Source of the DNA: Kitasatospora setae KM-6054
GTDB lineage: Bacteria > Actinomycetota > Actinomycetes > Streptomycetales > Streptomycetaceae
Length of the DNA stretch: 64,000 nucleotides
Direction: 5' to 3'
Assembly (NCBI RefSeq): GCF_000269985.1
Contig: NC_016109.1
Coordinates: 1,798,001 to 1,862,000 of the forward strand
Part shown: piece by piece, positions 8,803 through 61,690 of the stretch
Position numbering within the stretch: the stretch's first letter is position 1
Layout of the letters: the number at the start of each line of letters is the position of its first letter
Position numbers and translations under genes: made by a program
The notes under the pieces: generated by a model
Told to the model about the DNA's origin: nothing
Seen by the model: the letters and a program-made list of their open reading frames with translations, nothing else
The model's database searches: none

Positions 8803-9078
8803 CTACTGGCCCTGGCCCTGGCCCTGGCCCTGGTTCCGCAGGTCGAACTCGCCGTCCCGGGCCCCGAGCACGAAGGCCCGCCACTCGGCGGGGGTGAAGA
8901 CCAGCGCGGGCCCGTCCGGCTCCGCGCCGTTGCGCATCGCGATGTAGCCGTCGACGAAGGCGATCTGGACGCCCTGCTCGTCCCCGGCCGCGTTCTGCCA
9001 CTCGGCCCCGCTGAGGTCGAGCTCGATCTTGCGCCGCTCGTCCGCCGCCTGTGCCGCCTCTGCCGGCGTCATCGCCAT
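8803..9078 (-). CDS. DUF397 domain protein
   Basis: A 91-residue protein with the DUF397 pattern: DLSGAEWQNAA near the N-terminus and GPALVFTPAEWRAFVLGARDGEFDL near the C-terminus. In streptomycetes DUF397 proteins normally sit next to an Xre/HTH regulator of the WhiJ/BldB type and act as its partner or antitoxin-like modulator. No such regulator is adjacent here, so this copy is an orphan. The tail GQGQGQGQ is encoded by a hexanucleotide repeat. Two close in-frame ATGs exist (9078 and 9072); 9078 is used. Confidence 0.8.
   Translation of the reverse strand: MAMTPAEAAQAADERRKIELDLSGAEWQNAAGDEQGVQIAFVDGYIAMRNGAEPDGPALVFTPAEWRAFVLGARDGEFDLRNQGQGQGQGQ
8806..8833 (-). repeat. Hexanucleotide tandem repeat at the 3' end of the DUF397 gene
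   Basis: CTGGCC on the plus strand is repeated four full times plus four bases. It encodes alternating Gly-Gln at the C-terminus of the DUF397 protein and is in frame with period 6, so copy-number change would alter only tail length. Confidence 0.8.
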
Positions 9079-9322
9079 TGCGGGTGCCCTCCCCTTGCTC
9101 CTGGCCGCTTCCGGCCGTTGTCCTGGGCGTCCACCCTAGCCACTCGGGGGCGCCCGGTCCGGCGGTTCCGCCGGGGCGGCCCCGGCGGGGTGTGGAGATG
9201 GGCCGATCCGGCCGTCCGCGGCCGACACCTGTGCTAGAGGCCGCCAAAGGACGGGATCGGGCCGGGGCCGGGGTGAGGATGGGCGGGCAGGAGCCAGTCA
9301 GCGACGCACCCGGGAGCAGCCG

Positions 9323-9880
9323 ATGGACCAGCGGGACGGCAGCCGCGCCGACGTCATCCCGATCAGCACCGCGCCGTCGGCCCCGCCGGTGGGGGCGGCC
9401 ACCGGCACGGTGACCGCCCCGGCGCCGTCGGTGCCGCGCCCGGCCCGGCCGTCCGGGCTGGGCCGGGTGGGGCTGGTGCTGGTGTCGCACAGCCGGGAAC
9501 TGGCCGAGGCGGTGCGGGCGTTGGCGCTGGCCGTGGCGGAGACCGACGACCCGGCGCCGGTGGCGGCGACCGGCGGCGACCCGGCGGACGGCCCGGCGGA
9601 CGGCGGCCCGGGGGTGAGCGCGCTGCTGGTGGCCGCGGCGGCCCGCCGGGTCGACCAGGGGCACGGCGTCGCGGTGCTGTGCGACCTGGACGGTCCGGTC
9701 CGCACCGTGCTGGCGGTGCTGGCGGCCGCCGACGAGCACGGCCTGCCGTTCCCGACCCGGTTCGCGGACGCCCCGTTCGTGGAGGGCGCGGTCGCGGCGG
9801 TGGCGACCGCGACGGCCGGCGGCGACCTGGCGGCGGTGCTGGACGCGGCGGAGGAGACCGCCCGCCTCCCGAAGCGCTGA
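9323..9880 (+). CDS. dhaM: DhaM-like phosphocarrier (PTS EIIA-type, dihydroxyacetone kinase subunit)
   Basis: A 185-residue protein whose residues about 46-180 match the EIIA-mannose-type domain of DhaM, which passes phosphate from PTS HPr to the DhaL-bound nucleotide of dihydroxyacetone kinase. Key features are VGLVLVSHSRELAEAV, with the phospho-accepting His in SHS, GVAVLCDLDGPV, and the closing FADAPFVEGAVAAV. The first 45 residues are an Ala/Pro/Thr-rich extension not usual in the family. No dhaK or dhaL is visible nearby, so it would have to serve subunits encoded elsewhere. The start ATG has GGGAG seven bases upstream. Confidence 0.85.
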   Translation: MDQRDGSRADVIPISTAPSAPPVGAATGTVTAPAPSVPRPARPSGLGRVGLVLVSHSRELAEAVRALALAVAETDDPAPVAATGGDPADGPADGGPGVSALLVAAAARRVDQGHGVAVLCDLDGPVRTVLAVLAAADEHGLPFPTRFADAPFVEGAVAAVATATAGGDLAAVLDAAEETARLPKR

Positions 9881-48925: not shown

Positions 48926-50257
48926 TCAGTTCACCGCGACGGCCTGCGGGTCGTCCAGGTAGGGCTCCCAGGCGAGTTCCGCCGCGCCGACCAGGCCGGC
49001 GTGCGCCACCTGCGCGGGGACGATCGGGATGCGGCCGCTGCGGCCCCACAGGCAGCGGTCGGCGACGACCGCGGCGAGCCGGTCGGGGGCGGCGGCGAGC
49101 AGGTCGAGGTGCAGGCCGCTGAGCACGATCCGGTCCGGGTTGAGGATGTTGGCCAGCCCGGCGAGACCGAGTCCGAGCCGGTCGACGACCCGGGCGACGG
49201 CGTCCGCGGCGTGCGGGTCGCGGGCCAGCGCGCGGGCCTGCGGGAGCAGCGGGCGGTCCGGGTCGGGGCGGCGGCCGGCCGCGGCGAACAGCGCGTCGGT
49301 GTCGGTCTCGGCGTTGAGGCAGCCCCGGTTGCCGCAGGCGCAGGGGCGGCCGAGCGGGTCGACGGTCAGGTGGCCGACCTCCAGGGCCAGGCCGGAACTG
49401 CCGGTGTGCAGCCGCCCGTCGACGACCAGGGCGCCGCCGACGCCGCGGTGCCCGGAGGTGACGAGCAGCAGGTGGCGGGCGCCGCGGCCGGCGCCGTGCC
49501 GGTGCTCGGCGAGCGCGGCGAGGTTGGCGTCGTTGGCGACGGCGGTGGGCAGCGGGGCGCGGGCCCGCGGCCCGGGGTCGGCGCGGGCGGTCTCGGCGGC
49601 GTACAGCGCGTCGACCGGGGTGCCGGGCGGCCAGGCGAAGTGCAGGGACGAGGGCACCGTGCCGTCGGGTTCGGTGACGGGGTTGGGCAGGGCGAGCGCG
49701 GCGCCGAGGACCCGGCGGCGGCCGGCCCGGGCGAGCCGGGCGCCGGCCTCGGCGGCGGTGCGCAGCAGCGCGGCGGGCCCGGTGTCGGCGGGCAGCGGCA
49801 GGTGCACGGGGTCGTGCAGGCGGCCGCCGAGGCCGGCCAGCGCGACCGAGACGCCGTCGGCGTGCAGTTGGGCGGCGATCACGGCGGGGCCGGGGTCGGC
49901 GAGGGCGAGGCGGTGCGAGGGCCGGCCGCGGCCGCCGCCGGCCGGGCGGGAGTCGACGGTGATCAGGCCGAGCGCCTCGAGTTCGCCGGTGACGGCGCCG
50001 GCGGTGGCGCGGGTGACGTCGAGGGCGCCGGTGAGCGCGGAGCGGGTGGGGGCCTGGCCGGTGTGGATCAGGCGCAGGGCCGGCCCGAGCAGGGTCCGGC
50101 CGCGGTCGGGCGCGGCCCGGCGGTGCGACGGCTTGAACGGGCCTGTCGGCGGGGCCGGGTGCTGGCCCAGACTCGAACCGGGGCTCTGGTCCGGGCTCTG
50201 CTCCGGCCCCGCTCCCCGGCTCTGACTCGTCATCGGGCTTGAAGGTGTGTGCGGCAC
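48926..50257 (-). CDS. ROK family transcriptional regulator
   Basis: A 443-residue ROK protein with an N-terminal winged helix-turn-helix (about 75-130: RSALTGALDVTRATAGAV, TGELEALGLITV) and a glucokinase-like C-terminal domain. The ROK zinc site is CACGNRGCL in EVGHLTVDPLGRPCACG, and phosphate-binding segments are present. Such proteins are usually sugar-responsive repressors or activators. It is divergent from an MFS transporter with overlapping promoters, so it probably controls that gene. The GTG at 50257 (GAGGA adjacent) is used; an ATG at 50233 without a ribosome-binding site is the alternative. Confidence 0.85.
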   Translation of the reverse strand: MPHTPSSPMTSQSRGAGPEQSPDQSPGSSLGQHPAPPTGPFKPSHRRAAPDRGRTLLGPALRLIHTGQAPTRSALTGALDVTRATAGAVTGELEALGLITVDSRPAGGGRGRPSHRLALADPGPAVIAAQLHADGVSVALAGLGGRLHDPVHLPLPADTGPAALLRTAAEAGARLARAGRRRVLGAALALPNPVTEPDGTVPSSLHFAWPPGTPVDALYAAETARADPGPRARAPLPTAVANDANLAALAEHRHGAGRGARHLLLVTSGHRGVGGALVVDGRLHTGSSGLALEVGHLTVDPLGRPCACGNRGCLNAETDTDALFAAAGRRPDPDRPLLPQARALARDPHAADAVARVVDRLGLGLAGLANILNPDRIVLSGLHLDLLAAAPDRLAAVVADRCLWGRSGRIPIVPAQVAHAGLVGAAELAWEPYLDDPQAVAVN

Positions 50258-50268
50258 TCCTCTATTCT
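50239..50268 (+). promoter_or_regulatory. Promoter of the MFS gene (TTGAAG-N18-TATTCT)
   Basis: TTGAAG at 50239-50244 and TATTCT at 50263-50268 are separated by 18 bases. The GTG of the MFS gene follows 6 bases later, so the transcript is probably leaderless. Confidence 0.6.
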
Positions 50269-50291
50269 GACTTTGTGCCGCTACTGAACAA
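50263..50291 (-). promoter_or_regulatory. Overlapping divergent promoter of the ROK gene
   Basis: On the minus strand TTGTTC (50291-50286) and AGAATA (50268-50263) are separated by 17 bases. Its -10 is the exact complement of the MFS gene -10, so polymerase could occupy only one at a time. Confidence 0.4.
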
Positions 50292-51516
50292 AACAGAAGC
50301 CCGCTCCTCCCTCCCTTCCCCCGCCGCCGCCACCGAGACCCCGTCCGGCCGCAGCTCCTCCTGGTCGGCGGCACGCCTCGCCCTCACCGCCTTCTTCACC
50401 GTCGACGGCTTCCTGTTCGCCTCCTGGGTGGTCCGGATCCCGGACGTCCGCGCCCAGGTCGCCGCCTCGCACAGCGCGCTGGGCCTGGCCCTGCTGTGCG
50501 TCTCGGTCGGCGCGGTCGCCACCATGGCCCTGATCGGGCGGCTCTGCCTGCGCTACGGCTCGCGCCGGGTCACCGCCGCCTCGCTCGCCGTCCTCTCGCT
50601 CGCCACCGCACTGCCCGCGCACACCCACTCGGTGCTCTCGCTCGGCGCGGTGCTGCTGCTGTTCGGCGCGGGCTACGGCGCCGCCAACGTGGCGATGAAC
50701 AGCGCCGCGGTCGACCTGGTCACCGAACTCCGGCGGCCCGTCATGCCGAGCTTCCACGCGGGCTACAGCCTCGGCGGCCTGCTCGGCGCCGCGGTCGGCG
50801 GCCTGCTCGCCAGCCGGATCAGCGCCGCCTGGGCGCTCGCCGCGGCCGCCGCGCTCGGCCTGGCCGTGACCGCGCTGGCCGGCGCCGTCCTGCTGCGCAC
50901 CCCGGCCGCCGCCCCCCGCGCCACCACCCCGTCCGCCACCCGCCCGTCCGCCACCCGCCCGTCCGCCGGGCAGGCCCGGCTGCTGGTCGTACTGCTCGGC
51001 CTGGTCGCGCTGTGCACCGCGTACGGCGAGGGCGCGCTCGCGGACTGGGCGACCCTGCACCTGACCGACGACGTGCACGCGAGCGCCGCGCTGGCCGCCA
51101 CCGGCTACGCGTCCTTCGCCTTCGCGATGACGGCCGGGCGGCTCTCCGGCACCTGGCTGACCGAACGGCTGGGCCAGACCCGGCTGATGCTGCTGGGCGG
51201 CCTGGCCGCCTGCGCGGGCATGGCGACCGCCGCGCTGGCGCCGTCCGTCCCGGTGGCGCTGGCGGGCTTCGTCCTGGTCGGCATCGGCCTGGCCAACGTC
51301 TTCCCGCTGGCGATCGGCCAGGCGGGCGAGGCCGCCGGGCCGCAGGGCGTGGCCACCGCCTCCACCCTCGGCTACGCGGGCATGCTGGTCGGCCCCCCGG
51401 TGATCGGGTTCCTCGCCGACGCCCTCTCGCTGCCCGCCGCGCTGCTCACGGTCGCCGCCAGCTCCGCCCTGGCCGGGCTGCTCGCCCTCGCCGTCCGCCG
51501 CCACCGCGCGGCCTGA
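50275..51516 (+). CDS. MFS transporter (YbjJ-like)
   Basis: A 413-residue major facilitator with 12 predicted membrane helices. FFTVDGFLFASWVVRIPDVR is the family N-terminal motif, GAGYGAANVAMNSAAVDL and MPSFHAGYSLGGLLGA follow, all typical of the YbjJ/FucP-like group. The central loop carries a TRPSATRPSA repeat of 12-base units. The substrate is unknown; pairing with a ROK regulator suggests a sugar or sugar derivative. The leaderless GTG at 50275 is preferred to an in-frame GTG-type start at 50239 lying in the promoter. Confidence 0.82.
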   Translation: MPLLNKTEARSSLPSPAAATETPSGRSSSWSAARLALTAFFTVDGFLFASWVVRIPDVRAQVAASHSALGLALLCVSVGAVATMALIGRLCLRYGSRRVTAASLAVLSLATALPAHTHSVLSLGAVLLLFGAGYGAANVAMNSAAVDLVTELRRPVMPSFHAGYSLGGLLGAAVGGLLASRISAAWALAAAAALGLAVTALAGAVLLRTPAAAPRATTPSATRPSATRPSAGQARLLVVLLGLVALCTAYGEGALADWATLHLTDDVHASAALAATGYASFAFAMTAGRLSGTWLTERLGQTRLMLLGGLAACAGMATAALAPSVPVALAGFVLVGIGLANVFPLAIGQAGEAAGPQGVATASTLGYAGMLVGPPVIGFLADALSLPAALLTVAASSALAGLLALAVRRHRAA

Positions 51517-51559
51517 CCCGCCCGCCCGCCGCCGCCGTCGTCGTTCCGCCGCCGTTCCG

Positions 51560-52147
51560 CTACGGGTGGTACAGCTGGGTGATGCTGACGATCTTGTTCT
51601 GGGCGCCGCCGACCTTGATCTCGTACTGGTTGCCGAAGCAGCGGTAGGGCGCGGCCGGCTCGGCGTTCTTCAGGCAGGCCTCCTGGGCCTTCATGAAGAC
51701 GAACAGGTCGACGCTCTTGGCCTGCAGCTTGTCGTCCAGCAGCATGGTCTTCACGTCGTTGTCGAACTCGTAGAGCCGCGCGGCGCCCTGCGCCTCCCAG
51801 TAGCCGTCGTTCGGCACGTCGGGGCCGCAGACGAACTTCGCCGACTTGGCCCGCATCCAGACGTGCACCGCGTACGCGTTCTCGGTGGCCTCGACCACGG
51901 TCCGGCCGGCCGCGTCGGCCGTGCAGTCAGCGGCCGGCTTCGAGGCCTTTCCGGTGGCCGCGGCGGTGGACTTTCCCGTGCCGCCGGCGGCCGGCTTCGA
52001 CGCGGCGGCGGGCGAGGTGGCGGCAGCCGGCACGCCGGTGGTCGCGGCGGCGGTGGCCGCCGGGGCGGAGCCGTCCGGCTCGCAGGCGGTGAGCGCGAGG
52101 GCGGAGGCAGCCAGAACGGCGGCCACGGCAAGACGGTTGAGACGCAT
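51560..52147 (-). CDS. Putative lipoprotein of unknown function
   Basis: A 195-residue lipoprotein: MRLNRLAVAAVLAASALALTAC ends in a lipobox. An Ala/Thr/Ser/Lys/Gly-rich linker runs to about residue 75, followed by a compact domain with several cysteines (SAKFVCGPDVPNDGYWEAQG, AQEACLKNAEPAAPYRCFG). I do not recognise the domain. The architecture parallels the DUF4232 lipoprotein at 26 kb but the domain differs. GGGGGGA precedes the ATG. Confidence 0.75.
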   Translation of the reverse strand: MRLNRLAVAAVLAASALALTACEPDGSAPAATAAATTGVPAAATSPAAASKPAAGGTGKSTAAATGKASKPAADCTADAAGRTVVEATENAYAVHVWMRAKSAKFVCGPDVPNDGYWEAQGAARLYEFDNDVKTMLLDDKLQAKSVDLFVFMKAQEACLKNAEPAAPYRCFGNQYEIKVGGAQNKIVSITQLYHP

Positions 52148-52711
52148 CGTGCGAGTCCCCCCAGATGAGCAATGACAGGTGAATAGCGCGAATCCGGCCG
52201 TGTTTCCGTCGACGCCCCCGCGGCCCGACCTGCACTTCCAAGATCCATCGGACGGACATCCTGCCCGACCCGACAGACCCCACCACGCCGATCCGCCCCT
52301 CCCGGTTTCCCCTGTTGCGAAGCTGTGACAGTCATTGCACCCAGTGCCACACCCGGCGAATCCCCCCATTCCACCCGCCGATCAGAACCGACGGACAGCC
52401 AGGTCCCCTTGTATCCGAGCAAGTTCGGGCAAGTTGGAGGCGCCCGCCCGGTCGGATGCGGAAAGCTCTGGCACAACGATCGGCCACCGCACTCCGAGGA
52501 GGCTCTGCTCTCGTACAGCTGCCGCCACCGGACAAGTAGCTCTGCACAACCTTCTGGCAACGGAGTGGATCTTCGGGTCTGGTGTCCTGCTCCCGGTCAC
52601 CATGAGGTGGTGACCACGTCAGACCGCTGAAGGTGTTGCTGGAAATCGAGGTGCGGGGCGCGTCGGGCGTGGAAGGCTGGAAGCCGCGTTTCGGGCTCTG
52701 GGAGGCAGTTC
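52148..52711. other. 564-base intergenic region at the left edge of the accessory cluster
   Basis: No supported gene. It holds the upstream region of the lipoprotein gene and of the NUDIX gene, is less GC-rich than average, and contains an 8-base-arm dyad at 52595-52615 and a repeated GCAAGTT (near 52419 and 52430). The GGGAGG ribosome-binding site for GTG 52712 is at its end. Confidence 0.4.
52595..52615. promoter_or_regulatory. Operator-like dyad GGTCACCA/TGGTGACC
   Basis: Perfect 8-base arms around a 5-base TGAGG centre, 97 bases before the NUDIX GTG. It may be a regulator site for the NUDIX gene. Confidence 0.4.
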
Positions 52712-53212
52712 GTGTTCACGGTCGAATGGGTGGAGCAGTGGCCGCCGCCGCAGGAGTTGCCGGTCCGGCAGGTGTACGGGGTGGTGTTCGACGCTGCCAG
52801 CGGCGCTGTGGTGGTCCAGGACGATGCTGGGCGGTACAACCTGCCCGGCGGGACTCCCGAGGAGGAGGACGTCGATCTGGTCGCCACGCTGCAGCGTGAG
52901 TGCTACGAGGAGAGCCGGCTCGTCCTGAAAGACTGGGCGCCGGTGGGCTACCAGGTGGTACGAGAGGCGAAGCGCGCTCCCTACGCGCAGGTGCGGTACG
53001 CGGCGCTGCTGGAGCGCGCCGACCCCGTTGCGGCGGACCCGTGCACGGGCCGGGCGTACGGGCGGGCACTGGTGTCACCCTCCGACGCCGCCGACCTGCT
53101 CGGCTGGGGTGAGCGGGGCGCCGCCCAACTGGAGGCCGCCGCCCGCATCGCGGTGGAGCGGTGGAGTCTGGTGGTCGCGGTCGCGGGCACGGAGCGCCGC
53201 GAGCTGGTGTAG
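52712..53212 (+). CDS. NUDIX hydrolase with lengthened Nudix loop
   Basis: A 166-residue Nudix-fold protein. The box reads GGTPEEED, then nine rather than seven residues before RECYEESRLVL, so the loop is two residues longer than the GX5EX7REXXEE consensus while the metal-binding Glu residues remain. Strands VYGVVFDAASGAVVVQD and YAQVRYAALLE fit the fold. The substrate would be a nucleoside diphosphate derivative, plausible beside nucleotide-kinase-like and glycosyltransferase genes. GTG 52712 has GGGAGG upstream. Its 3' end overlaps the convergent GT2 gene by 138 bases. Confidence 0.75.
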   Translation: MFTVEWVEQWPPPQELPVRQVYGVVFDAASGAVVVQDDAGRYNLPGGTPEEEDVDLVATLQRECYEESRLVLKDWAPVGYQVVREAKRAPYAQVRYAALLERADPVAADPCTGRAYGRALVSPSDAADLLGWGERGAAQLEAAARIAVERWSLVVAVAGTERRELV

Positions 53213-54130
53213 GCGGGCGGCCGTGTACGCGGCCGCGACGGTCGCGGCGCGGACCAGCGTCAACAGCCTCAAGGAATAAGGGAGTTCGTGGGCGCCGTAG
53301 GCTGACCGGCAGGTGCGCAGCAGGGTGCGGCAGGGCCGCCACCGCGACAGGTTCCACAGGCGGGCGCCGTGGAGGGTGCGGCAGCGGGCCAGGCCCTGGC
53401 CGGACAGGGCGCTCTTGTACAGCAGCGCGCGGGCACCGAGGTGGTCGTGGTGGTCGGTGGCCATCCGCGGGTCGAAGCGGATCCGGTCCGCGAATCCGGC
53501 CTCGGCGAGCCGGAGTTGGTAGTCGACGTCCTCGAAGGCCCCGCAGGCGAAGGCGGGCGCCGTGATTCCGTGGGCGTGGGCGACGCGGAGGTCGACGAGC
53601 ATGTTCCCGCCGGCGACCATCATCGAGGGCGCGTGCCGCACGAGGGTGGGCGCGGTGCGCGCGGCGGTGACCTTGGCGGAGGATTCGGCTTCCCAGGCGC
53701 GGATCCGGCCTCCGGCGCCCTGCGGGCGGGCCGGATGGCGTGGGCCGAAGGCCAGCACGGCTCCGCCGTCGGCGGCAGCCAGGGCGGCCATCCACCAGCC
53801 GGGGCGGGGCGGGCAGTCGTCGTCGAGGAACGCGACGTGGGTGAGGTGCGGCGCCGTGGCGGCGAGGTGGGTGAGGTGCCAGGCGCGGGCGGCTCCGATC
53901 CGCAGGGGAGTCCCGGTCTCGTCCACGCACGCGCCGACCGCGGCGGCAGCCCGGTGGGCCCGGGTGTGGGCGGTGCTGCCGGGAGCGCCGGTGAACAGGA
54001 CGGTGACCGCGCCGAACGGGGCCTGGGTGGCGAGGGCGGACAGCACCAGGGGCAGGGTGGCGGGCGCGGTGTGGGTGACGACCGCGACCGCCACGGCCGG
54101 GGCAGTCGCGGGGGCGGGGGTTACCGGCAT
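53075..54130 (-). CDS. Family 2 glycosyltransferase
   Basis: A 351-residue GT2 enzyme. VAVAVVTHTAPATLPLVLSA opens the fold, VAFLDDDCPPRPGWW holds the DDD metal site, and VAGGNMLVDLRVAH plus ACGAFEDVDYQLRLAE are the acceptor/ED catalytic region. The C-terminus (about 250-351) is basic and lacks clear membrane helices. It is the last of five overlapping genes and its start overlaps the GT4 stop by 10 bases. It should glycosylate a product of this operon; donor and acceptor unknown. The final 45 codons overlap the opposite-strand NUDIX gene. Confidence 0.8.
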   Translation of the reverse strand: MPVTPAPATAPAVAVAVVTHTAPATLPLVLSALATQAPFGAVTVLFTGAPGSTAHTRAHRAAAAVGACVDETGTPLRIGAARAWHLTHLAATAPHLTHVAFLDDDCPPRPGWWMAALAAADGGAVLAFGPRHPARPQGAGGRIRAWEAESSAKVTAARTAPTLVRHAPSMMVAGGNMLVDLRVAHAHGITAPAFACGAFEDVDYQLRLAEAGFADRIRFDPRMATDHHDHLGARALLYKSALSGQGLARCRTLHGARLWNLSRWRPCRTLLRTCRSAYGAHELPYSLRLLTLVRAATVAAAYTAARLHQLAALRARDRDHQTPPLHRDAGGGLQLGGAPLTPAEQVGGVGG

Positions 54131-55194
54131 CGTCGGATCACCTCCAGCAGGTGGTCGATCACGCGGGCGGTGGTGTGCCGGGCGGCGTGCGCGTACGCCG
54201 CGCCGCGCAGCCGGTTCAGGCGCTGCTGGTCGTTGAGCAGCGCGGCGGCCCGGTCGGCGAACGCGGCCTGCACGTCGGGGTGGGCGGCGGGGCCGGGGAC
54301 GAGGAGGCCGGCGGTGCCGGCGGCGGCGCGCTCGCGCAGGGCGGCCCGGTCGGAGAGGACCGGGACGGTGCCGCAGGCGGACGCCTCCAGGGCGGCGATG
54401 CAGCACATCTCGTCGTAGTCGGTGGGGTAGAGCATGAGCTCGCTGGAGGCGAGGGTGCGCAGGTAGGTGGTGCGGTCGACCTCACCGAGGTGGGTGACGC
54501 CGTCGGGGAGCCGGGTCAGCGCCGGGACCTGGTGGTGGGCGAGCGAGCGGGCCTGGTCGGGACTGTAGCCCCACAGCCGGTAGCCGCCCATCACGGTCAG
54601 CGTTGCTTCGGGGATCTGTTCGCGCAGGCGCGGCCACAGGGTGAGGAGCGGATCGAGGCCGCGTTCGGGGACGCTGGCGTGCACGCAGTGGAAGCGGCGG
54701 CGCGGCACGTCGGCGAGCGGGGCGGGGTCGATGTCGTGGCCGCAGGAGTGGACGACGTAGCCGTGACGGGGAGTCAGCAGTGGGGCGTACAGGGCGTGGG
54801 CTGCCTTCGAGCCGACGAAGGCGAGGTCGCAGGCGGGGGTGGTGCCGGCGATGCCGGGGGTGGAGCGGTCCCCGATGTACAGCACCCTGGTGGCGCCGGC
54901 GGGGACGTCGGCGAGGAGGTTCGCGTTGCGCCAGGCGATGACGGCCTGGGTGGGGCGGCCGGGTGCGGGGGCGGTGGCGGGGGTGCACCAGCCGTCCGCG
55001 GCGAGGCTGGCGTCTGGGCGGGGCCGGTCGGCGGCGGGCTCGCCGAGCAGGACGCGCACGGCGACGCCGCGCACGCGAAGGTGGCGCCACCAGGCGAGGA
55101 GGGTGGCCTCGTTGCCGCCGAGGCCGCTGTCCAGCCGTTCGGGCGGGAAGTAGCGGGTGCCGGGGGCGAGGATGTCGAGGGCGAGGTCGTTCAT
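54121..55194 (-). CDS. GT-B glycosyltransferase (GT4-like)
   Basis: A 357-residue glycosyltransferase. RLDSGLGGNEATLLAWWRHL is the Gly-rich acceptor loop, FHCVHASVPERGLDPLLTLW begins the donor domain, and PTDYDEMCCIAALEASACGT is the EX7E region in variant form with two adjacent cysteines. The final residues bind as in GT4. ATG 55194 overlaps the phosphatase stop by 4 bases. The protein is shorter at the N-terminus than many GT4 enzymes. Substrate unknown; it acts with the GT2 gene downstream. Confidence 0.8.
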   Translation of the reverse strand: MNDLALDILAPGTRYFPPERLDSGLGGNEATLLAWWRHLRVRGVAVRVLLGEPAADRPRPDASLAADGWCTPATAPAPGRPTQAVIAWRNANLLADVPAGATRVLYIGDRSTPGIAGTTPACDLAFVGSKAAHALYAPLLTPRHGYVVHSCGHDIDPAPLADVPRRRFHCVHASVPERGLDPLLTLWPRLREQIPEATLTVMGGYRLWGYSPDQARSLAHHQVPALTRLPDGVTHLGEVDRTTYLRTLASSELMLYPTDYDEMCCIAALEASACGTVPVLSDRAALRERAAAGTAGLLVPGPAAHPDVQAAFADRAAALLNDQQRLNRLRGAAYAHAARHTTARVIDHLLEVIRRCR

Positions 55195-55658
55195 CGGCGC
55201 TCCTTCAGGGTTCGGGTGTAGCGGGTCAGGAGGTCCATGGCCTGGCCGTCGGGCAGGCGCACGCCGCGCTCCGCGTACCGGGTGAGGGCCTGGGCGGGGG
55301 TGTCGCCGCTCGCGGTGAGGATGGCCAGGGCGAGGAGTCCGGCGCGGTCCAGGCCGAGCAGGCAGTGGGCGAGGAGCGGGCGCCGGCTGTGCTGGACGGC
55401 GTGCACGGCCCGGCGCAGTCGTGGCAGTGCCGTCTCGTCCCAGTAGGTCAGGGGCAGGTGGCGGACCAGGGTGGTCGGCGGCGCCCAGGCGGGCGGGTAG
55501 TCGCCGCGCTCGGGTGGGCGGCGGCGCAGGCACAGGACGGTGGCGGGCTGGTGCGAGAGGGTGTGGGCGGTGGCGGCGGAGGCGATGTGGAAGCCGGGCA
55601 GCACCTGCCACGGCCGGACGGGCTCCGGGTCGGCCGCTGTCGTGGTGCGGGCCGTCAC
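55191..55658 (-). CDS. Dual-specificity/tyrosine phosphatase-fold protein (HCX5R)
   Basis: A 155-residue cysteine phosphatase. The P-loop signature is AHCLLGLDRAG, with nucleophile Cys99 and Arg105 (HCX5R), and a likely general acid Asp74 lies in TYWDET. Preceding strand ATVLCLRRRPP and the helical tail fit small DSP-like enzymes. Within a kinase/glycosyltransferase operon the substrate may be a phosphorylated small molecule or sugar rather than a protein. Its GTG start overlaps the kinase stop (GTGA), and its stop overlaps the next ATG. Confidence 0.75.
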   Translation of the reverse strand: MTARTTTAADPEPVRPWQVLPGFHIASAATAHTLSHQPATVLCLRRRPPERGDYPPAWAPPTTLVRHLPLTYWDETALPRLRRAVHAVQHSRRPLLAHCLLGLDRAGLLALAILTASGDTPAQALTRYAERGVRLPDGQAMDLLTRYTRTLKERR

Positions 55659-56290
55659 GGGTGCCTCGGGGCGAGTTCGGCGAGCAGCGCGGCGATCTGC
55701 GCCGCACTCTCGTGGGGCGGCTGCTCGGAGGTGCCGATCAGGTGGTAGCCGAAGCCCTGCGCGAGGCGGGTCAGGTGCTCCTCAACGCGCCGATGGTGGT
55801 CGGCGTCGGGGCCAAACCGTCGGTCGTCTCGCAGGTTGGGTGCGCCGGTGCGCAGGTAGCGGTCATGCCGTACCTCGTGGGGGCTGTGCAGCAGGACGGC
55901 CAGGTCGACGCGGCGGTGCAGCGTCGGGGCGAGGCGCGCGGCGAACCGTGCGAGCACGGTTTGCCGGCGGGCGAGGTCGTGCGCCCAGACCCGGCACACG
56001 TACGACTCCTGGAGCCAGACCTGCTGACCGGCGGGGTTGTGGCCGCCCGGCGGCGTGGGGCGGGCGGCGAGGTCCGGCAGGTAGGCGAGGTGGAACAGCG
56101 CGGAGCGCACTGGGTCGGGCAGGTGCGGGATGCGGTAGGCGGCCTCGATCAGGGCGGGTATGGGGCCGCCGGTCAGGGAGGTGGTCGAGCGCACAACCGT
56201 CGTGCCCTGCTGGTCCAGGTACTCGGCGAGGTGGCGGCAGACGGTGGTCTTGCCGGTGAAGTCCATGCCCTCCACGACGATCCTGATCAT
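55655..56290 (-). CDS. Thymidylate-kinase-like P-loop kinase 2
   Basis: A 211-residue P-loop kinase. The N-terminus IRIVVEGMDFTGKTTVCRHL is the Walker A of the TMPK family. Instead of the TMPK DR(Y/F) motif it has LQESYVCRVWA, shared with the neighbouring kinase. A lid-like basic region (HEVRHDRYLRTGAPNLRDDR) follows. It probably phosphorylates a nucleotide, nucleoside or related small molecule; a housekeeping dTMP kinase role is unlikely given the motif change and context. It overlaps both neighbours by 4 bases. Confidence 0.75.
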   Translation of the reverse strand: MIRIVVEGMDFTGKTTVCRHLAEYLDQQGTTVVRSTTSLTGGPIPALIEAAYRIPHLPDPVRSALFHLAYLPDLAARPTPPGGHNPAGQQVWLQESYVCRVWAHDLARRQTVLARFAARLAPTLHRRVDLAVLLHSPHEVRHDRYLRTGAPNLRDDRRFGPDADHHRRVEEHLTRLAQGFGYHLIGTSEQPPHESAAQIAALLAELAPRHP

Positions 56291-57048
56291 CGCCCGCTCC
56301 CTCGCTCGGCACCGATCTGCTCGGCGGCGCGCGCGGCGGCCAGTCGGCGGACCAGGTCGGCGGCGGCGCGGGCGGCCTGTTCGGAGGCGGTGGCCGCAGT
56401 GTCGATGTGCCGCACGCGCCGGTGGCGCCGGGCGACCTGGTGAAGGGCCCGGCAGAAGCGGCCCTCGAAGGCGGCGTCCGCGACGGTGACCGCGTCCACC
56501 CCGTCCGCGCGGTCGCGCCCGGCCAAGCGCTCCAGGCGCACGACGTGGCCGGCGCGGGTGATCAGCGCGAGGTCGAAGCGCGGGAAAGCGCCCGGGTGGC
56601 GGGCGGCCCATCGGGCGGCGGGCCAGTTCCCCGCCGCGACGCCGTAGGCGACGGCCCGATCCACATAGGACTCCTGGACGACCACGTCGACCAGCACGTC
56701 GTCCAGCACGCCGGGCAGCACGCGGTCGAGCATGGCGGAAGCGATGAACGCCGCGTTGAGGCGACTGCTGGCCGGGCGCTCCCCCGGCACGGTGCGCTCC
56801 AACGAGCGGCGCAGCGGGTGGCGTTCGGCGAGGGCGCCGCGGTGGTGGAACACGCGCAGGCCCGAGTCCTGCAGTTGCTCGGCGAGCAGGCGCGCCAGGG
56901 TGGTTTTGCCGGTGAGGTCCATGCCGTCGACCAGCACCCCGACCGGCCGCCGGGCGCGGCCCGGGCGGCGGTCCGCGGTGGTGGCGCGGTGCGGACGGCG
57001 GGTGCGGGCGGTGGAAATGGCGGGGGTGAGCGGGTCGGCGGTGGCCAT
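56287..57048 (-). CDS. Thymidylate-kinase-like P-loop kinase 1
   Basis: A 253-residue P-loop kinase. A 35-residue Arg/Thr/Ala-rich extension precedes VGVLVDGMDLTGKTTLARLL (Walker A Lys48). VQESYVDRAVAYG occupies the place of the TMPK DR(Y/F) motif, and an Arg-rich lid region follows (HVVRLERLAGRDRADG). It is paralogous to the adjacent kinase, and the two may act in sequence on one substrate or form a heterodimer. First gene of the five-gene overlapping operon; GAGGAG precedes the ATG. Confidence 0.75.
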   Translation of the reverse strand: MATADPLTPAISTARTRRPHRATTADRRPGRARRPVGVLVDGMDLTGKTTLARLLAEQLQDSGLRVFHHRGALAERHPLRRSLERTVPGERPASSRLNAAFIASAMLDRVLPGVLDDVLVDVVVQESYVDRAVAYGVAAGNWPAARWAARHPGAFPRFDLALITRAGHVVRLERLAGRDRADGVDAVTVADAAFEGRFCRALHQVARRHRRVRHIDTAATASEQAARAAADLVRRLAAARAAEQIGAERGSGR

Positions 57049-57169
57049 GGAGGGCTCCTCGTCTGCACAGAACGGGACGATGACTCCATGGCACCGTGCC
57101 TCAACTCTCCTTCCCAGAGACGAAGTTGGGACGAGAATAGGATCCGGCTGGAAGAAATCCGGGACACGG
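57049..57169 (-). promoter_or_regulatory. Likely promoter region of the five-gene operon
   Basis: The 121 bases between the M20 gene and kinase 1 contain a minus-strand TATTCT box (complement of AGAATA at 57135-57140), an 11-base dyad GGCAC-C-GTGCC at 57090-57100, and the GAGGAG ribosome-binding site. Read-through from the M20 gene is also possible. Confidence 0.35.
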
Positions 57170-58387
57170 CTAGGACACCGGCCGCTCCGGGACCGAATCC
57201 GGTGCGGACAGCAGGCTCAGCACGGCCTGCCGGTAGACGGCGTACACCTCGGGCAGCGCCGCCAGGTCCGCCCGTTCGTCGGTGCCGTGCAGCCCCTCGT
57301 ACGGCACTCCGAAGCCGGCGGTCGCCGCGATCCCCTCTCCGGCGAGCAGGTTGCCGATATTGGACGGGCCGGCGACCTTCGCGCGCACATCGAGGCCCTG
57401 AGCCGCGGCCGCGGCGAACAGGGCGGCGGCGGGCTGCTCGCCGGCCCCCAGACGGAACGGCGGCCAACTCGCTTGCGGCGCAACCTCGCTCGGCCGCGCG
57501 GAGGGCATCTCCGCGTCCAGCTCGGCGACCGCCCCCCGGATCAGCTTCTCGGCATCATGGGCGTCGAAGCCGGGGACGGTGCGCACGTCCACGTTCAGCT
57601 CGCACAGATCCGGCACGGTCGAGAAGCCCGCCCCGCCGTGGAAGGCGGTGACCGTCAGCTTCGGCCCCAGTGGAAACCCTGAGGTGCCGTCCGCCGCGGG
57701 CAGGCCCGCCCCGTCCAGGAGGCGGACCAGGTGCGCGGCACGGGATACGGCACCGACCTGGGTGCGGCTCGATCCGGAGTGCCCCGACGGGCCGTACACG
57801 GAGATCACCGCCCGCCACAGGCCGCGACCACCGACCACCACCTCCTCCAGCCCCGGGTAGCCGATCATCACGCCCGCCGGGCGCACCGCGCGCTCGTCGG
57901 CGAGGTAGGCGCGCGCCCCGCCGAAGCCGCCGGTGTGCTCGTCGACGTCGAGCAGCACCGCGAGCCCGCCGTACAGGTCGCCGGCACGCGGCCACAGGTC
58001 GGCCGCGATGTGGCAGAACAAGGAGGCGGCGAGCTTCGAGTCGGCGCTGCCCCGCCCGAGCAGCCAGCCCGATACGACGTCACCGCAGGCCGGGGGGAAC
58101 GACCATGTGCCTTCGTCGCCGAACGGGGCGGTGTCCACGCAGGCGTCCAGCGCCCACCAGCGGCCCGGCCGGCCTCCGGGGATCTCCACCAGCAGCCCCG
58201 CCGGCGCGTCCCGGTGGTGCAGCCGCCGGTGCGGCAGGCCCCGGGCACCGAGCCAGTCCTCCAGCGCCCCGAGCACCGGCCCGTAGTCGTCGATGCCGGC
58301 CCTGCTCGGCCGGCGGATCAGCGCCTGCGCCAGCTCGACGACCGACGCCGCCCGCTCTCCGACCCGGACGTCCGCACTGCTGCTCAC
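57170..58387 (-). CDS. M20 family metallohydrolase with altered metal ligands
   Basis: A 405-residue M20/ArgE/DapE-type hydrolase. The di-zinc site is only partly canonical: the first HxD reads CVD (Cys83, Asp85), GRGSADSK keeps Asp116, the catalytic DEE reads DEH (Glu150, His151), and the EP position is YPG. The dimer-domain SGHSGSS and the C-terminal GLHGTDE histidine are present. It may cleave or form an amide or peptide bond with a changed metal, or have lost activity. The GTG start lies 17 bases after the regulator stop, so the two genes are probably co-transcribed. Confidence 0.75.
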   Translation of the reverse strand: MSSSADVRVGERAASVVELAQALIRRPSRAGIDDYGPVLGALEDWLGARGLPHRRLHHRDAPAGLLVEIPGGRPGRWWALDACVDTAPFGDEGTWSFPPACGDVVSGWLLGRGSADSKLAASLFCHIAADLWPRAGDLYGGLAVLLDVDEHTGGFGGARAYLADERAVRPAGVMIGYPGLEEVVVGGRGLWRAVISVYGPSGHSGSSRTQVGAVSRAAHLVRLLDGAGLPAADGTSGFPLGPKLTVTAFHGGAGFSTVPDLCELNVDVRTVPGFDAHDAEKLIRGAVAELDAEMPSARPSEVAPQASWPPFRLGAGEQPAAALFAAAAAQGLDVRAKVAGPSNIGNLLAGEGIAATAGFGVPYEGLHGTDERADLAALPEVYAVYRQAVLSLLSAPDSVPERPVS

Positions 58388-58404
58388 TTCCCGCTCCCCA
58401 CTGG

Positions 58405-59175
58405 TCAGCCGTGCCGCACCGGCAGCGCGCGCACCGTCTCGAACGTCTCCACCGCGCGCGCCCCGGCAGCCGCTTCCCGTCCATGGTGGACCAGGCCCTG
58501 CGCCGCCTCGCGCCCCAGCAGCACCCCGCAGTCGAACCCGTCGGAGCCGTGCAGCGACGGCAGCGGCACGACCGCCTGGGTCTCCGAAGCCACGAAGAAC
58601 CGCTCCAGCGCCGGCCCCTCGACGACGCCGATGTGCAGCGTCTTGACGCCGTGACGGCGCTCACCCGGATCACGCAGCTCCAGCAGCCGCACCAGGTGGT
58701 CCGCGAGCTCGCGGTGACGCGGCGGCCCGTACAGCACCCGGTAGTGCACCAGACCCGGATCCCGCGCCACCGCCGTCTCGATCGCCGCCAGATACGCCTT
58801 CTCCCGTGACCGGCTGCCGGTGACGACCAACTGCTCGCGTGCGCCTGCCACCACGCCGACCATCGCCTCCACCAGATCCGTCCACCGCGTGAGCACCTTC
58901 AGCACCACGCCCGTCCCCGAAGACTCCAGCGTGCTGACGGCCTCACCGTCCTGATGGGCGAACAGCACCTCCGGCTTCTCCCCGAACAGCCTGCACAGCC
59001 CCTGACGATTGCGTTGCCCCGTACGCCGCCGGCCCGACTCCCAGGCGCTCACCAGACTTCCGTCCGCCGACAGGTTCGTGATCAGGTTCAATGCCTCGGC
59101 GACGTCCTCCTGCGTCATGTTCCGAGCCAGCCTCGCCCGCCGCAGCGCCGAATCCCCACCATCCGCCGCAACCAC
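58405..59175 (-). CDS. HTH (Xre-type) regulator with PLD-like C-terminal domain
   Basis: A 256-residue regulator. Residues about 10-70 form an Xre-type helix-turn-helix (ALRRARLARNMTQEDVAEAL, SLVSAWESGRR). Residues about 85-256 resemble the phospholipase-D-like fold used as a sensor in some actinomycete regulators (LVVTGSRSREKAYLAAIE, VVPLPSLHGSDGFDCGVLL) without an HKD catalytic motif. GTG 59175 has GGGGAGGGGG upstream. It heads the M20 gene and the five-gene operon and likely controls them. A CTTG-N5-CAAG dyad lies at 59255-59267 upstream. Confidence 0.75.
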   Translation of the reverse strand: MVAADGGDSALRRARLARNMTQEDVAEALNLITNLSADGSLVSAWESGRRRTGQRNRQGLCRLFGEKPEVLFAHQDGEAVSTLESSGTGVVLKVLTRWTDLVEAMVGVVAGAREQLVVTGSRSREKAYLAAIETAVARDPGLVHYRVLYGPPRHRELADHLVRLLELRDPGERRHGVKTLHIGVVEGPALERFFVASETQAVVPLPSLHGSDGFDCGVLLGREAAQGLVHHGREAAAGARAVETFETVRALPVRHG

Positions 59176-59254
59176 GCCCGCTACCCCCTCCCCACCACCG
59201 GAAATATCCCAAGCCTTCCCCGCCCGGCCACAGTTCACCGCAACCGCCCGACAG

Positions 59255-59267
59255 CTTGAACTCCAAG
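59255..59267. promoter_or_regulatory. Dyad CTTG-AACTC-CAAG upstream of the regulator
   Basis: Four-base arms with a 5-base centre, 80 bases before the regulator start; a possible autoregulatory site, weak on its own. Confidence 0.25.
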
Positions 59268-59310
59268 ACGTCGACCATCGGTCCGGGCCGGCGAATTCGA
59301 GCGGGGGGAG

Positions 59311-59724
59311 GTGCGGTCGGCGGACCCGTCCGAGCGGGCCCGGCGGGTGCTCGCCCAGTTCGAGACCCCGGGAGCCGTCAAGGTCGTCCTCGACGCCCCG
59401 GCGCTGATCAGGTGGATGTACCCCGGCAGCGGCGAGGGCTGGGACGTGCTGGACGAGGTGATGCCGCGGTGCGTGACGACGTCCGCGGTGGTCGCCGAAG
59501 CGCTCGGCCTGGCGGTCGCACACCACTACACCGGCACCCCGCAGCAGCTCGCGGACGACCTGGTGGCCGTCGGCCTGCGAGTGGAGGAACAGCTCCTGCT
59601 GCGCGACAGCACGCGGGCGCTGGAACTGCTCGCGGCGGCGAAGGCTGCGGGCGGCGAAGGCTGCGCCGGGCGCGCGTCGTCTCGGAGCCGCTGTCGGAGT
59701 ACACGCGCTTCGAGCACGATGTGA
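59311..59724 (+). pseudogene. Truncated PIN-domain protein fused out of frame to DUF6879 sequence
   Basis: The first 115 codons read as a PIN-like toxin domain: VKVVLDAPALIRWMYPG (first acidic residue), then VTTSAVVAEALGLAV (conserved Glu), then STRALELLAAAK. The PIN C-terminal acidic cluster is absent: at about 59665 the frame runs into DUF6879 sequence in the wrong frame and ends in an Arg/Ser-rich tail. The GTG at 59311 sits directly against GGGGGGAG. Probably a remnant of a toxin gene; no antitoxin is visible. Confidence 0.6.
59635..59665 (+). repeat. 15-base direct repeat at the PIN/DUF6879 junction
   Basis: GCGGCGAAGGCTGCG occurs at 59635-59649 and again at 59651-59665 with one base between. 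It marks where PIN homology ends and DUF6879 homology begins, consistent with a deletion or slippage joint. Confidence 0.7.
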
Positions 59725-59975
59725 CGTTCCGAAACATCGCTGCCGGTGAGGAGGTCCGCTGGCTCGCACGTCGTCGGGCCGGCGGCCTGGCACTGCCGCC
59801 GAACGACTTCTGGCTGGTCGACGACGGCGTCCTGCTCGTCCACCACTTCAGCGGCGAGGGCGACTTCGTCGACGACGAGATCGTCACGGCGCCCGGCACC
59901 GTCGAGCTCTGCCGCTCGGCGTTCGAGGCGGTGTGGCGCCTCGCCGTCCCCCACCCGGAGTACGAGCCGAGCTGA
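59666..59975 (+). pseudogene. C-terminal fragment of a DUF6879 protein
   Basis: In a frame different from the PIN segment, the sequence reads RRARVVSEPLSEYTRFEHDV and continues through GEEVRWLARRRAGG, LPPNDFWLVDDGVLLVHHFS to AVPHPEYEPS, the conserved C-terminal half of DUF6879. The N-terminal half is missing. An internal GTG at 59721 could start an 84-residue product but has no good ribosome-binding site. Full-length DUF6879 proteins occur beside Xre-type regulators in streptomycetes. Confidence 0.65.
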
Positions 59976-60041
59976 GACCGTGCCCGCTTCCTCCCCGTCG
60001 ACGGTCCGAGCAGCCCGCCTCGCGCTCGGCCGGCGCCGGCC

Positions 60042-60827
60042 CTACGGGGCGGGTGGCGGTGGGCTGCTGTCGGCGGGGGTTTCGCCGGGGAGGCGGAGGT
60101 CCCAGCCGACCAGGGCGCGGAGTTGGGCGGCGGTGAGGCCGTCGGGGACGGGGCGGGGCGGGTCGTGGCGGATGGGGGGCTGCCAGCCGTCCTCGGGGTT
60201 CCAGGTGCGGACCTGGCGGGCGGGGGCGCCGGCCACGACGGCGTAGTCGGGGACCTCGCCGGCGACGACGGAGTTGGCGGCGACGACGACGTTGCGGCCG
60301 ATCCGGGCGCCGGGGAGGATGACGGCGCCGGTGCCGATCCAGGAGCCGGCGCCGATCGAGACGGGCTCGTTGCGGGGCCACTGCTTGCCGATCGGCACTT
60401 CGGTGTCGCGGTACTCGTGGGCCTGGTCGGTGATGTAGACGTCGGGTCCGGTCCACACGTCGTCGCCGAGTTCGATCCGCTGGTGGCCGACGATGTGGCT
60501 GCCGCGGCCGATCACGCAGCCGCCGCCGATCCGGACGATCGGCTCGGGGCCGAGGTCGAGCCCGGGCAGGAACCCGGCCGACAGGGTGACCTGTTCGCCG
60601 ATGATGGAGAACGGGCCGATGGTGATCCAGCGCTCGTTGAAGACGGTGCCGAGCGGGAACGCGAGCGTGGTGCCGTCGCCGAGTTCGCCGAACCGGTACG
60701 GGCCGGGGTTGCGGTTGCTGACGGCGCCCGCGTCCCGCAGCCACCGCCAGCCGCGGTGCACGGCGTGCCCGGCCGCCCGGCGCGACCTCTCGCGGACGGG
60801 TCCGAGCAGCCTGCGGACGATCGACAT
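60042..60827 (-). CDS. Hexapeptide-repeat acyltransferase
   Basis: A 261-residue left-handed beta-helix acyltransferase. Repeats run from about residue 55 to 190 (FSIIGEQVTLSAGFLPGLDLG, IGRGSHIVGHQRIELGDDVW, SIGAGSWIGTGAVILPGARIG). A catalytic His candidate lies in ITDQAHEYRD, the loop typical of xenobiotic/sugar acetyltransferases, and the end of the helix is DYAVVAGAPARQVRTWNP. It would transfer an acyl group from acyl-CoA to a sugar or similar hydroxyl. No direct partner is visible; linkage to the glycan genes is only a possibility. Confidence 0.82.
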   Translation of the reverse strand: MSIVRRLLGPVRERSRRAAGHAVHRGWRWLRDAGAVSNRNPGPYRFGELGDGTTLAFPLGTVFNERWITIGPFSIIGEQVTLSAGFLPGLDLGPEPIVRIGGGCVIGRGSHIVGHQRIELGDDVWTGPDVYITDQAHEYRDTEVPIGKQWPRNEPVSIGAGSWIGTGAVILPGARIGRNVVVAANSVVAGEVPDYAVVAGAPARQVRTWNPEDGWQPPIRHDPPRPVPDGLTAAQLRALVGWDLRLPGETPADSSPPPPAP

Positions 60828-60925
60828 GCGCTCACCGTAGCGGCCGGTGCGCCCGCTGGGCCCGCAACGGGACCAAACTCACACCGGCCGGTAACTTCGG
60901 TCCGCGCGGCCCCGGAAGGCCGAGG

Positions 60926-61690
60926 TCAGCGCACCCAGCGGGCGGGCCGCTTCTCCAGGAAGGCGCGCATGCCCTCCTGCGCCTCCTCGGAGCCGAACAG
61001 CTTCGCCGAGAGCGCGACCAGTTCCTCGGTGTGCCGTTCGAAGGACTCCCGGACGGCCGCGTTGGCGAGCAGTTTGGACTCGGCGAGGCCCTGCGGCGAG
61101 CAGAGCCGGATCGCGTCCAGGACGGTGCGCAGTTCGGCGGCGGAGTCGTCGGCGGCCTCGGTGACCAGGCCGATCCGGGCCGCCTCGGCGGAGTCGAAGG
61201 TCTCGCCGGTCAGGTAGTAGCGGGCGGCGGCGCGCGGGTCGAGCTTGGGGCGCAGCGGCAGCGAGATGACGGCGGGGGCGAGGCCGAGCCGGGACTCGGT
61301 GAAGGCGAAGGTGGCGTCGGGGCCGGCCACCGCGAGGTCGCAGGCGCCGACCAGGCCGAGGCCGCCGGCCCGGACGTGGCCGTCGACCAGGGCGATGACG
61401 GGCTTGGGGCAGTCGACGAGGGCGCGCTGCAGGGCGACCAGGCCGCGCGGGCCGACGGTGGGGTCGTCGCCGGTGGCCTCGGAGAGGTCGGCGCCGGCGC
61501 AGAACACCCGGCCGGTGTGGCCGAGGACGACGGCGCGGACCTCGGGGTCGGCGGCGGCCGCGGCGAGTCCGGCGGTGAGTTCGGCCATCAGCCGGGTGGA
61601 GAGGGCGTTGCGGTTGTGCGGGGAGTCGAGCTGGAGGGTGGTGACGGCGTCGGCGGTGGTGCGGCGGACGAGTGGCGCTTCGCTGGTCAT
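60926..61690 (-). CDS. Enoyl-CoA hydratase/isomerase family protein
   Basis: A 254-residue crotonase-fold enzyme. The oxyanion-hole segments are GRVFCAGADLSEA and HVRAGGLGLVGACDLAVA, and ESRLGLAPAVISLPL covers the third conserved block. It most likely hydrates an enoyl-CoA in fatty-acid or amino-acid breakdown, but the crotonase family is broad and the catalytic Glu pair is not clearly placed. The end FLEKRPARW is family-typical. ATG 61690 gives the expected length; AAAGGCAGG lies upstream. Confidence 0.85.
   Translation of the reverse strand: MTSEAPLVRRTTADAVTTLQLDSPHNRNALSTRLMAELTAGLAAAAADPEVRAVVLGHTGRVFCAGADLSEATGDDPTVGPRGLVALQRALVDCPKPVIALVDGHVRAGGLGLVGACDLAVAGPDATFAFTESRLGLAPAVISLPLRPKLDPRAAARYYLTGETFDSAEAARIGLVTEAADDSAAELRTVLDAIRLCSPQGLAESKLLANAAVRESFERHTEELVALSAKLFGSEEAQEGMRAFLEKRPARWVR

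Follow-up and report, generated by a model that had tools for sequence, protein, structure and literature searches.

A rare kinase, phosphatase and glycosyltransferase cassette beside a candidate HTH-M20 control module in Kitasatospora setae

A published study describes MftF (TIGR03965) as an enzyme that glycosylates a peptide-derived cofactor (PMC7491314). MftF is the best curated match of a glycosyltransferase encoded in an island of eight genes in Kitasatospora setae KM-6054, which is our subject here. The island occupies positions 52,712 to 59,175 of a 64,000-nt stretch of NC_016109.1 (1,798,001 to 1,862,000), hereafter the window. It comprises genes for two kinases (K1 and K2), a phosphatase (PTP) and two glycosyltransferases (GT4 and GT2), a NUDIX hydrolase gene that converges on them, and, upstream, genes for an M20-fold hydrolase (M20) and a helix-turn-helix regulator (HTH) (Table 1). 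The match of GT2 to MftF falls far short of membership (46.9 bits against a cut-off of 280), and no other mycofactocin family is represented among the eight proteins.

Other described systems resemble single parts of the locus. Thymidylate kinases (TIGR00041, PF02223) share the P-loop with K1 and K2 and are their nearest family, but the window pair, two paralogues in a natural-product-like operon, scores far under the dTMP kinase equivalog cut-off of 83.25 bits (K2 23.4, K1 15.0). ArgE/DapE deacylases have fold family, dimerization domain and length in common with M20, but Cys, His and Tyr replacements are invariant in the subfamily of the window protein. Among clusters for ribosomally synthesized and post-translationally modified peptides (RiPPs), those of the lasso type have HTH, M20 and the conserved element described below directly upstream in six loci, with a lasso B2 annotated in three of them (L059, L061 and L062), whereas the window has no cyclase, B1/B2, recognized precursor or ABC gene behind its element. 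The cyclase of L064, the only one compared with this family, has NF033561 (albusnodin/ikarugamycin) as its nearest curated family, at 218.9 bits against a cut-off of 300. A SAV_5884-type graspetide cluster (TIGR04187, L088) and an FxLD/LanB cluster (L091) also have the module upstream, but their maturation enzymes differ from those of the window, which has no recognized precursor. Assignment of the locus to dTMP kinase, MftF or lasso systems was rejected because cut-offs are not reached or parts are missing. The parts are members of known superfamilies, and the cassette, the module and its use with several RiPP classes were not met in the open-licence literature.

On balance, we favor the reading that the locus joins two evolutionary units: a portable cassette, probably for a peptide-derived natural product, and a reusable HTH-M20-promoter module. 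We rate it as a case of mobile biosynthetic gene clusters. If this is correct, natural-product pathways of the streptomycete type use interchangeable parts, with a two-gene regulator-hydrolase module and its promoter accepting unrelated cargo. The phased element behind HTH-M20 would then offer a sequence handle on clusters, RiPP and non-RiPP alike, that may escape searches based on enzymes, and the locus would draw attention to an M20 subfamily whose metal site is rebuilt and, in the kinase/phosphatase/glycosyltransferase cassette, to candidate new chemistry.

Table 1. Features of the K. setae island (window coordinates)
Feature	Position	Strand	Description
HTH regulator	58405..59175	-	HTH_3 (Pfam, 26.7 bits); C-terminal domain strongly conserved but outside known families; module gene 1
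M20-fold hydrolase	57170..58387	-	Pfam Peptidase_M20 and M20_dimer; altered metal site LDACxDT, DEHTG, IGYPG; module gene 2
Conserved promoter/operator-like element	57080..57176	-	held-out nhmmer model; putative function
K1	56287..57048	-	thymidylate-kinase-like P-loop kinase; 35-aa N-terminal extension; first cargo gene
K2	55655..56290	-	thymidylate-kinase-like P-loop kinase; Thymidylate_kin 31 bits
PTP	55191..55658	-	small HCX5R phosphatase; Y_phosphatase3 27 bits
GT4-type glycosyltransferase	54121..55194	-	Glycos_transf_1 56.1 bits; EX7E
GT2-type glycosyltransferase	53075..54130	-	DDD and FEDVD motifs; weakly MftF-like (TIGR03965, 46.9 bits)
NUDIX hydrolase	52712..53212	+	Pfam NUDIX 28.6 bits; convergent on the operon

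The cassette and its second copy

A preliminary description of this DNA had listed five minus-strand genes from 57048 to 53075 that overlap by 4 or 10 nt, and the open reading frames (ORFs) of the window are laid out as it said: K1/K2, K2/PTP and PTP/GT4 each overlap by 4 nt and GT4/GT2 by 10. All eight genes of the island are open. Pfam families and motifs support the earlier assignment of two thymidylate-kinase-like kinases, an HCX5R phosphatase and a GT4-like enzyme; K1 has the P-loop GMDLTGKT and PTP the motif HCLLGLDRAG. K2 scores over the Pfam cut-off for Thymidylate_kin, as NUDIX and M20 do for their own families, and K1 scores under it (19.9 bits against 27). For GT2, the DDD and FEDVD motifs are kept and the family match is weak (12.7 bits against a Pfam cut-off of 23.3). 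None of the eight proteins reached an NCBIfam cut-off among the families shown (for M20, the best 25 of 33 matches), and none matched RiPP maturases (cyclase/B2, MvdD-type ATP-grasp or LanB) in Pfam or NCBIfam. A phage origin was rejected, as no K2 match was found in phages at E ≤ 1e-5 and the sole kinase on a viral contig is a K1-type gene in a different operon. An anti-phage defense system was likewise rejected, the PADLOC matches of the window proteins being weak and confined to P-loop or HTH fragments.

The same set recurs in another genome of the genus, G143. There, K1-K2-NUDIX-PTP-GT4-GT2 lie collinear on one strand of an 18-kb region, at 41-52% identity to the window proteins (K1 46%, K2 43-44%, PTP 41%, GT4 52%, GT2 43%, NUDIX 49-50%), and the catalytic motifs of all six are intact in both copies. 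NUDIX sits inside this operon, between K2 and PTP. Because the collinear set holds NUDIX and is without M20 and HTH, NUDIX belongs to the cassette and the other two do not necessarily do so. In the window, the NUDIX and GT2 genes overlap tail-to-tail by 138 nt (53075-53212), the GT2 tail being antisense to NUDIX, and this tail is without the hydrophobic C-terminal stretch found in the G143 copy. Together, these features suggest an inversion that brought NUDIX onto the end of the operon. K1 starts ATGGCC, and its 35-aa extension is absent from the G143 K1; we speculate that start and extension mark the joint between module and cargo.

Further copies did not turn up. With four to seven candidates scored in each large genome draw and overlap among the family draws, prevalence can be given approximately and absence is soft. 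Among 200 family genomes, G143 alone besides K. setae had a second true K2, six other matches being K1-type kinases or fragments, and a K2 profile was strong in 2 of 394 family genomes. GT4 was found in 2 of 70 genus genomes; there was no third copy among 394 class genomes, where it occurred in K. setae only, and the GT2 profile likewise found only K. setae among 396 phylum genomes. Plasmids gave no match to K2, GT2 or PTP at E ≤ 1e-5 and only partial GT4 matches, in three of them. A scan of genome contigs returned one 23-residue match in a metagenome-assembled genome, which we judged spurious. The gene order thus recurs, with K-K-PTP-GT-GT collinear in G143 and NUDIX included, but not in distant genera: under shallow sampling it was seen in two genomes of one genus. 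That description knew of no pathway with this gene set; searching open-licence papers by title, abstract and passages, we found neither the set nor the cassette described. The cassette is a real but rare unit.

In G143 the cassette is embedded in a peptide-linked cluster, and in the window it stands behind the HTH-M20 element. Upstream of the G143 K1 lie genes for an M16 peptidase and for a protein of ~280 aa that matches no known family, and downstream one for a PF14907 (NTP_transf_5) nucleotidyltransferase. A 20-aa ORF with a good ribosome-binding site (RBS) precedes the M16 gene and is followed by a strong hairpin of 63 nt (-43.4 kcal/mol, z -2.9). A search with the 20-aa peptide found eight plasmid records (78-89% identity across 18 residues), though its E values are weak (0.008-0.07), and the M16 protein found the same eight. 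Seven of them (five from S. goshikiensis, ADI95-16 and Mg1) give an identical peptide match, so independent cases are few. In the three plasmids examined, the ~280-aa protein and the nucleotidyltransferase both have matches and the K cassette is absent within 9 kb; in HUAS 15-9 about 6.4 kb separate the peptide from M16, and the two are on opposite strands. The peptide, of 20-21 aa and the form MxRNHxVGxRPRLDKxK..., is conserved between L013 (6208-6270), where the hairpin follows it, and plasmid loci L116-L118. It is possibly an undescribed carrier-peptide or RiPP family. Open-licence papers searched for on the peptide and M16 described, by title, abstract or passages, neither the cassette nor a link of M20-HTH to RiPP cargo.

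The HTH-M20 pair and its phased repeats

The preliminary description had noted altered metal ligands in M20. Aligned with ArgE (7rsf), it has Cys in place of the GHxD His, His in place of the second DEE Glu and Tyr in place of the GEP Glu, all three being metal-ligand positions. By this and the subfamily alignment, the window protein is without the canonical dinuclear-site ligand residues of M20 metallopeptidases, which bears the earlier remark out and makes the alteration a conserved family trait: LDACxDT, DEHTG and IGYPG are invariant in all 22 full-length sequences aligned, out of 27 (left out were the short L063, L100, L103 and L104 and the broken L102). Because these motif letters are kept at 51-78% identity, the alignment implies that the subfamily is functional rather than decaying.

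HTH and M20 had been placed in one system with the kinases and glycosyltransferases. They behave instead as an independently moving pair with their own element and different cargo elsewhere, and we rejected them as enzymes of the cassette pathway because both occur without the cassette and with other cargo. The PLD-like part ascribed to the regulator did not hold up either, with no such Pfam match and a structure model of predicted local distance difference test score (pLDDT) 37. In the window, HTH lies directly upstream of an M20 with the three motifs, and HTH matches 47-78% identical stand beside M20 in 17 other loci, those of L063, L086 and L103 being fragmentary or broken. Among 70 genomes of the genus, G036 is the only other one with both genes, which adjoin each other there without a cassette match; M20 was found in 20 of 249 family genomes in one draw. 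On plasmids, nine records among the 15 listed (233 matched) have M20 at 52-77% identity. We examined six of these nine (identity of at least 50%), taking one of three copies of the S. clavuligerus plasmid and leaving out NBC_01237. All six have an HTH match upstream of M20, annotated directly before it in four and recognized by tblastn in two, one of which (L063) is divergent and broken up. Nine M20 loci have no HTH match; five of them (L093, L094 and L096-L098) form one branch at 100/98, and the others are short or outside the tree. The M20 of L093, L094, L096, L097, L098 and L100 is of the same subfamily and occurs with neither HTH match nor element; in L096 it adjoins an old-yellow-enzyme/mycofactocin-OYE-like oxidoreductase that scores under the curated cut-offs. 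No open-licence paper linking M20-HTH to RiPP cargo was found by title, abstract or passages.

Right after the M20 stop, loci share an element of ~100 nt, in which TCCCA-type repeats in 11-bp steps (mostly with one step of 12) are followed by a block like GCGGTGACATAGAGG. In the window there are six direct repeats in 11-bp phase, TCCTA, TCCCG, TTCCA, TCCTA, TCCCA and TCTCT, the first over the M20 stop codon, and then ACGGTGCCATGGAG; most of the element falls within the 121 nt that separate M20 from K1. For several loci (e.g., L059, L060, L064 and L090) the automatic M20 stop was wrong and was replaced by hand before comparison. An nhmmer model built from ten loci, with the window held out, found the window site (57176-57080) at E = 4e-13, the next window match having E = 7.8, and found the element of the other held-out locus, L099, at E = 9e-6. 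A degenerate repeat pattern gave one match in the window and none in 100 shuffles. Because this pattern was written after the site had been seen, the held-out model is the better test. The element occurs in 12 of the 18 M20 loci with HTH and in none of the nine without (hypergeometric 0.001).

A second model, which includes all 12 loci and so the window, was run on 15 chosen genomes. Seven of them gave one strong match each (E about 1e-14 or better), in every case at the M20 end. Its matches in G015 and G960 were weak, and that in G015, by eye inside an apparent oxidoreductase gene, was judged to be chance. Across 106 family genomes, seven had a match at E ≤ 0.001, namely six training sequences and the weak G015 site. 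Within the candidates scored, 150 for the 15 genomes and 37 for the 106, out of several thousand, there was no second element site or new locus, and with this model one site was reported in the K. setae genome itself. The element is presumably a promoter/operator, and it is quite probable that HTH controls it.

What follows the element differs from locus to locus, by gene maps that come partly from a simple base-usage gene caller and contain errors. Eight of the 12 element loci carry RiPP-type cargo (six lasso-type, one graspetide and one FxLD/LanB), one (L060) has a dehydroquinate-synthase/flavoprotein set, two have none recognized, and the window has K1 to GT2. Each lasso-type locus (L059, L061, L062, L064, L087 and L090) combines a lasso cyclase of the asparagine-synthase type with a precursor-like ORF of 44-60 aa. 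L088 has a TIGR04187 ATP-grasp graspetide maturase over the cut-off, a methyltransferase and an 88-aa ORF, and L091 has a TIGR04364 FxLD methyltransferase over the cut-off, a 43-aa ORF and LanB. On a tree of 20 of the 27 M20 proteins, L060 falls into one group with L061 and L062, both lasso loci, at 100/97. Lasso cargo needs three changes on this tree, at least two of them forced by supported branches, and the clustering of the cargo labels does not exceed that of shuffled labels. Different cargo stands behind closely related modules. In L088, by our reading, what follows the element still opens in the manner of a lasso precursor (ATGGCCGAGCA) and then gives way to the graspetide genes, which looks as though the first codons were the point of a cargo exchange. 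Two further sites stand out: L060 has, behind the element and before the dehydroquinate synthase and flavoprotein genes, a 15-aa ORF ending in Cys (8412-8459), which we guess could be a very short precursor for C-terminal Cys decarboxylation, and L039 (3273-4667, G036) has an NsdA-family regulator directly behind HTH-M20-element, with no biosynthetic cargo there.

Because M20 goes with HTH whatever the cargo, we infer that a role in control or signal turnover is favored over a maturation step. A leader peptidase role is less likely, though it keeps some chance, as three lasso loci are annotated with a B2 of their own and M20 spans three RiPP types. The word M20 appears nowhere in the main text of a review of RiPP leader proteases (PMC10885120).

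How the locus may work and what else it could be

In the two-unit reading, the portable control module would consist of HTH, M20 and the phased-repeat, promoter-like element just downstream of M20, and the cargo of K1-K2-PTP-GT4-GT2 with NUDIX. HTH, or an HTH oligomer, would bind the phased repeats and switch on the next gene. M20 would make or destroy a small acyl-amide signal, or act on the product, as its co-transfer with HTH whatever the cargo suggests. K1 and K2 would phosphorylate an intermediate in one or two steps, GT4 and GT2 would attach sugars, and PTP and NUDIX would trim phosphate and pyrophosphate groups. A peptide is the most likely source of the intermediate, since other loci have RiPP genes behind the module and the G143 cassette lies amid a 20-aa-peptide/M16 cluster. 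That the product is peptide-derived, phosphorylated and glycosylated is a tentative proposal, held with less than even confidence. That the cassette makes an undescribed class of phospho-glycosylated peptide-derived products or cofactors, and is traded between the HTH-M20 chassis and a 20-aa-peptide/M16/nucleotidyltransferase chassis, seems to us conceivable but rather unlikely.

Several observations weigh against the two-unit reading. No more than two genomes were found to have the cassette, so each host module is tied to it by a single case, and the G143 copy has no HTH, M20 or element. No precursor peptide was recognized in the window: among eight ORFs of 12-80 aa with an RBS-like string at 51401-61000, none was judged plausible by position and base usage. 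The element is missing from 6 of the 18 HTH-linked loci (L063, L086, L089, L095, L101 and L103; in L089 a transposase gene directly follows M20). Ten of the 12 element loci were the training set of the first model, the window and L099 being the two that were not, and the strong hits of the second were all training sequences, with no new element. L039 and L099 carry the element and no recognized biosynthetic cargo, the latter as judged from its gene map and short-ORF list only. A K1-type kinase occurs in a plasmid cluster annotated with a nonribosomal peptide synthetase (NRPS), so ribosomal origin of the peptide is not certain. The AlphaFold models of K2 and HTH, made without an alignment, were poor (pLDDT 37 for both).

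The preliminary description had suggested a nucleoside-derived product, and a nucleoside or sugar-nucleotide pathway, although unlikely, is the alternative that holds up best. The kinases would turn a nucleoside or a sugar into a diphosphate that the glycosyltransferases use, PTP and NUDIX would remove phosphates, and HTH-M20 would be a mere local regulator. Such a pathway fits the Protein Data Bank matches of the K1/K2 profile, 21 of 23 being thymidylate kinases, though weak (best E = 2e-5) and headed by a hypothetical protein; it also fits a cassette that combines NUDIX with two glycosyltransferases and a window in which no precursor ORF was recognized. However, the kinase scores lie far below the dTMP kinase cut-off, no characterized nucleoside-forming or -modifying gene is named among the eight proteins by Pfam or NCBIfam, libraries that cover part of such genes, and both the module and the G143 context are peptide-linked. 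The earlier suggestion gains no specific support, and the contexts point more to peptide-based natural products.

The surroundings of the island bear on its history. It is flanked by a major facilitator superfamily gene (50239-51516) and a hexapeptide-transferase gene (60042-60827), the latter present in 29 of 31 genomes searched, K. setae included. Six relatives have both flanking genes, separated by 0.9-4.9 kb, and at E ≤ 1e-5 none of the eight island genes has a match there. G+C content at third codon positions is 0.87-0.955 in the island genes against a median of 0.96 for the 43 genes called in the first 52 kb. The absence of the eight genes from the slot in relatives and these base-composition values point to acquisition. 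The slot (51516-60042) is variable, the six relatives examined having other predicted genes there; there is no tRNA in the window, and repeats also gave no island border.

A decaying island, recently acquired and no longer a functional pathway, would agree with the occurrence in only two genomes, with the reversed NUDIX, the 138-nt GT2 overlap and the antisense GT2 tail, and with the absence of all eight genes from the slot in six relatives; with all eight genes open and the motifs kept at 41-52% identity to G143, we consider it improbable. Very unlikely, too, is an operon for the assembly of a surface or lipid glycan whose place next to HTH-M20 is accidental: two glycosyltransferases occur together, PimA-type structures are among the nearest structural matches of GT4, and the G143 GT2 has the hydrophobic C-terminal stretch of membrane-attached GT2 enzymes, but Pfam finds no flippase, polymerase or lipid-carrier gene among the operon proteins, and the K1 ATG stands ~30 nt past the element end at 57080, with an RBS-like GAGGAG upstream. 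It is unlikely that the cassette came by accident to lie next to the one element reported for K. setae.

K1-type kinases also appear outside the cassette. In L014, L015, L016, L034 and L115, such a kinase is followed by a ~500-aa protein and then a ~550-aa protein, seemingly a second recurring K1 operon. The ~500-aa protein is weakly ATP-grasp-like in L014, L016 and L034; the ~550-aa protein has CxxxCxxC and is radical-SAM-like by eye in L016 and L115. L014 and L016 also have a NUDIX gene by Pfam. On a plasmid of Streptomyces sp. NBC_01244 (L058), a K1-type kinase gene (9019-9678) heads a run annotated as aminotransferase, TauD and NRPS, and in G202 (L033) a K1-type gene has a TauD gene further along.

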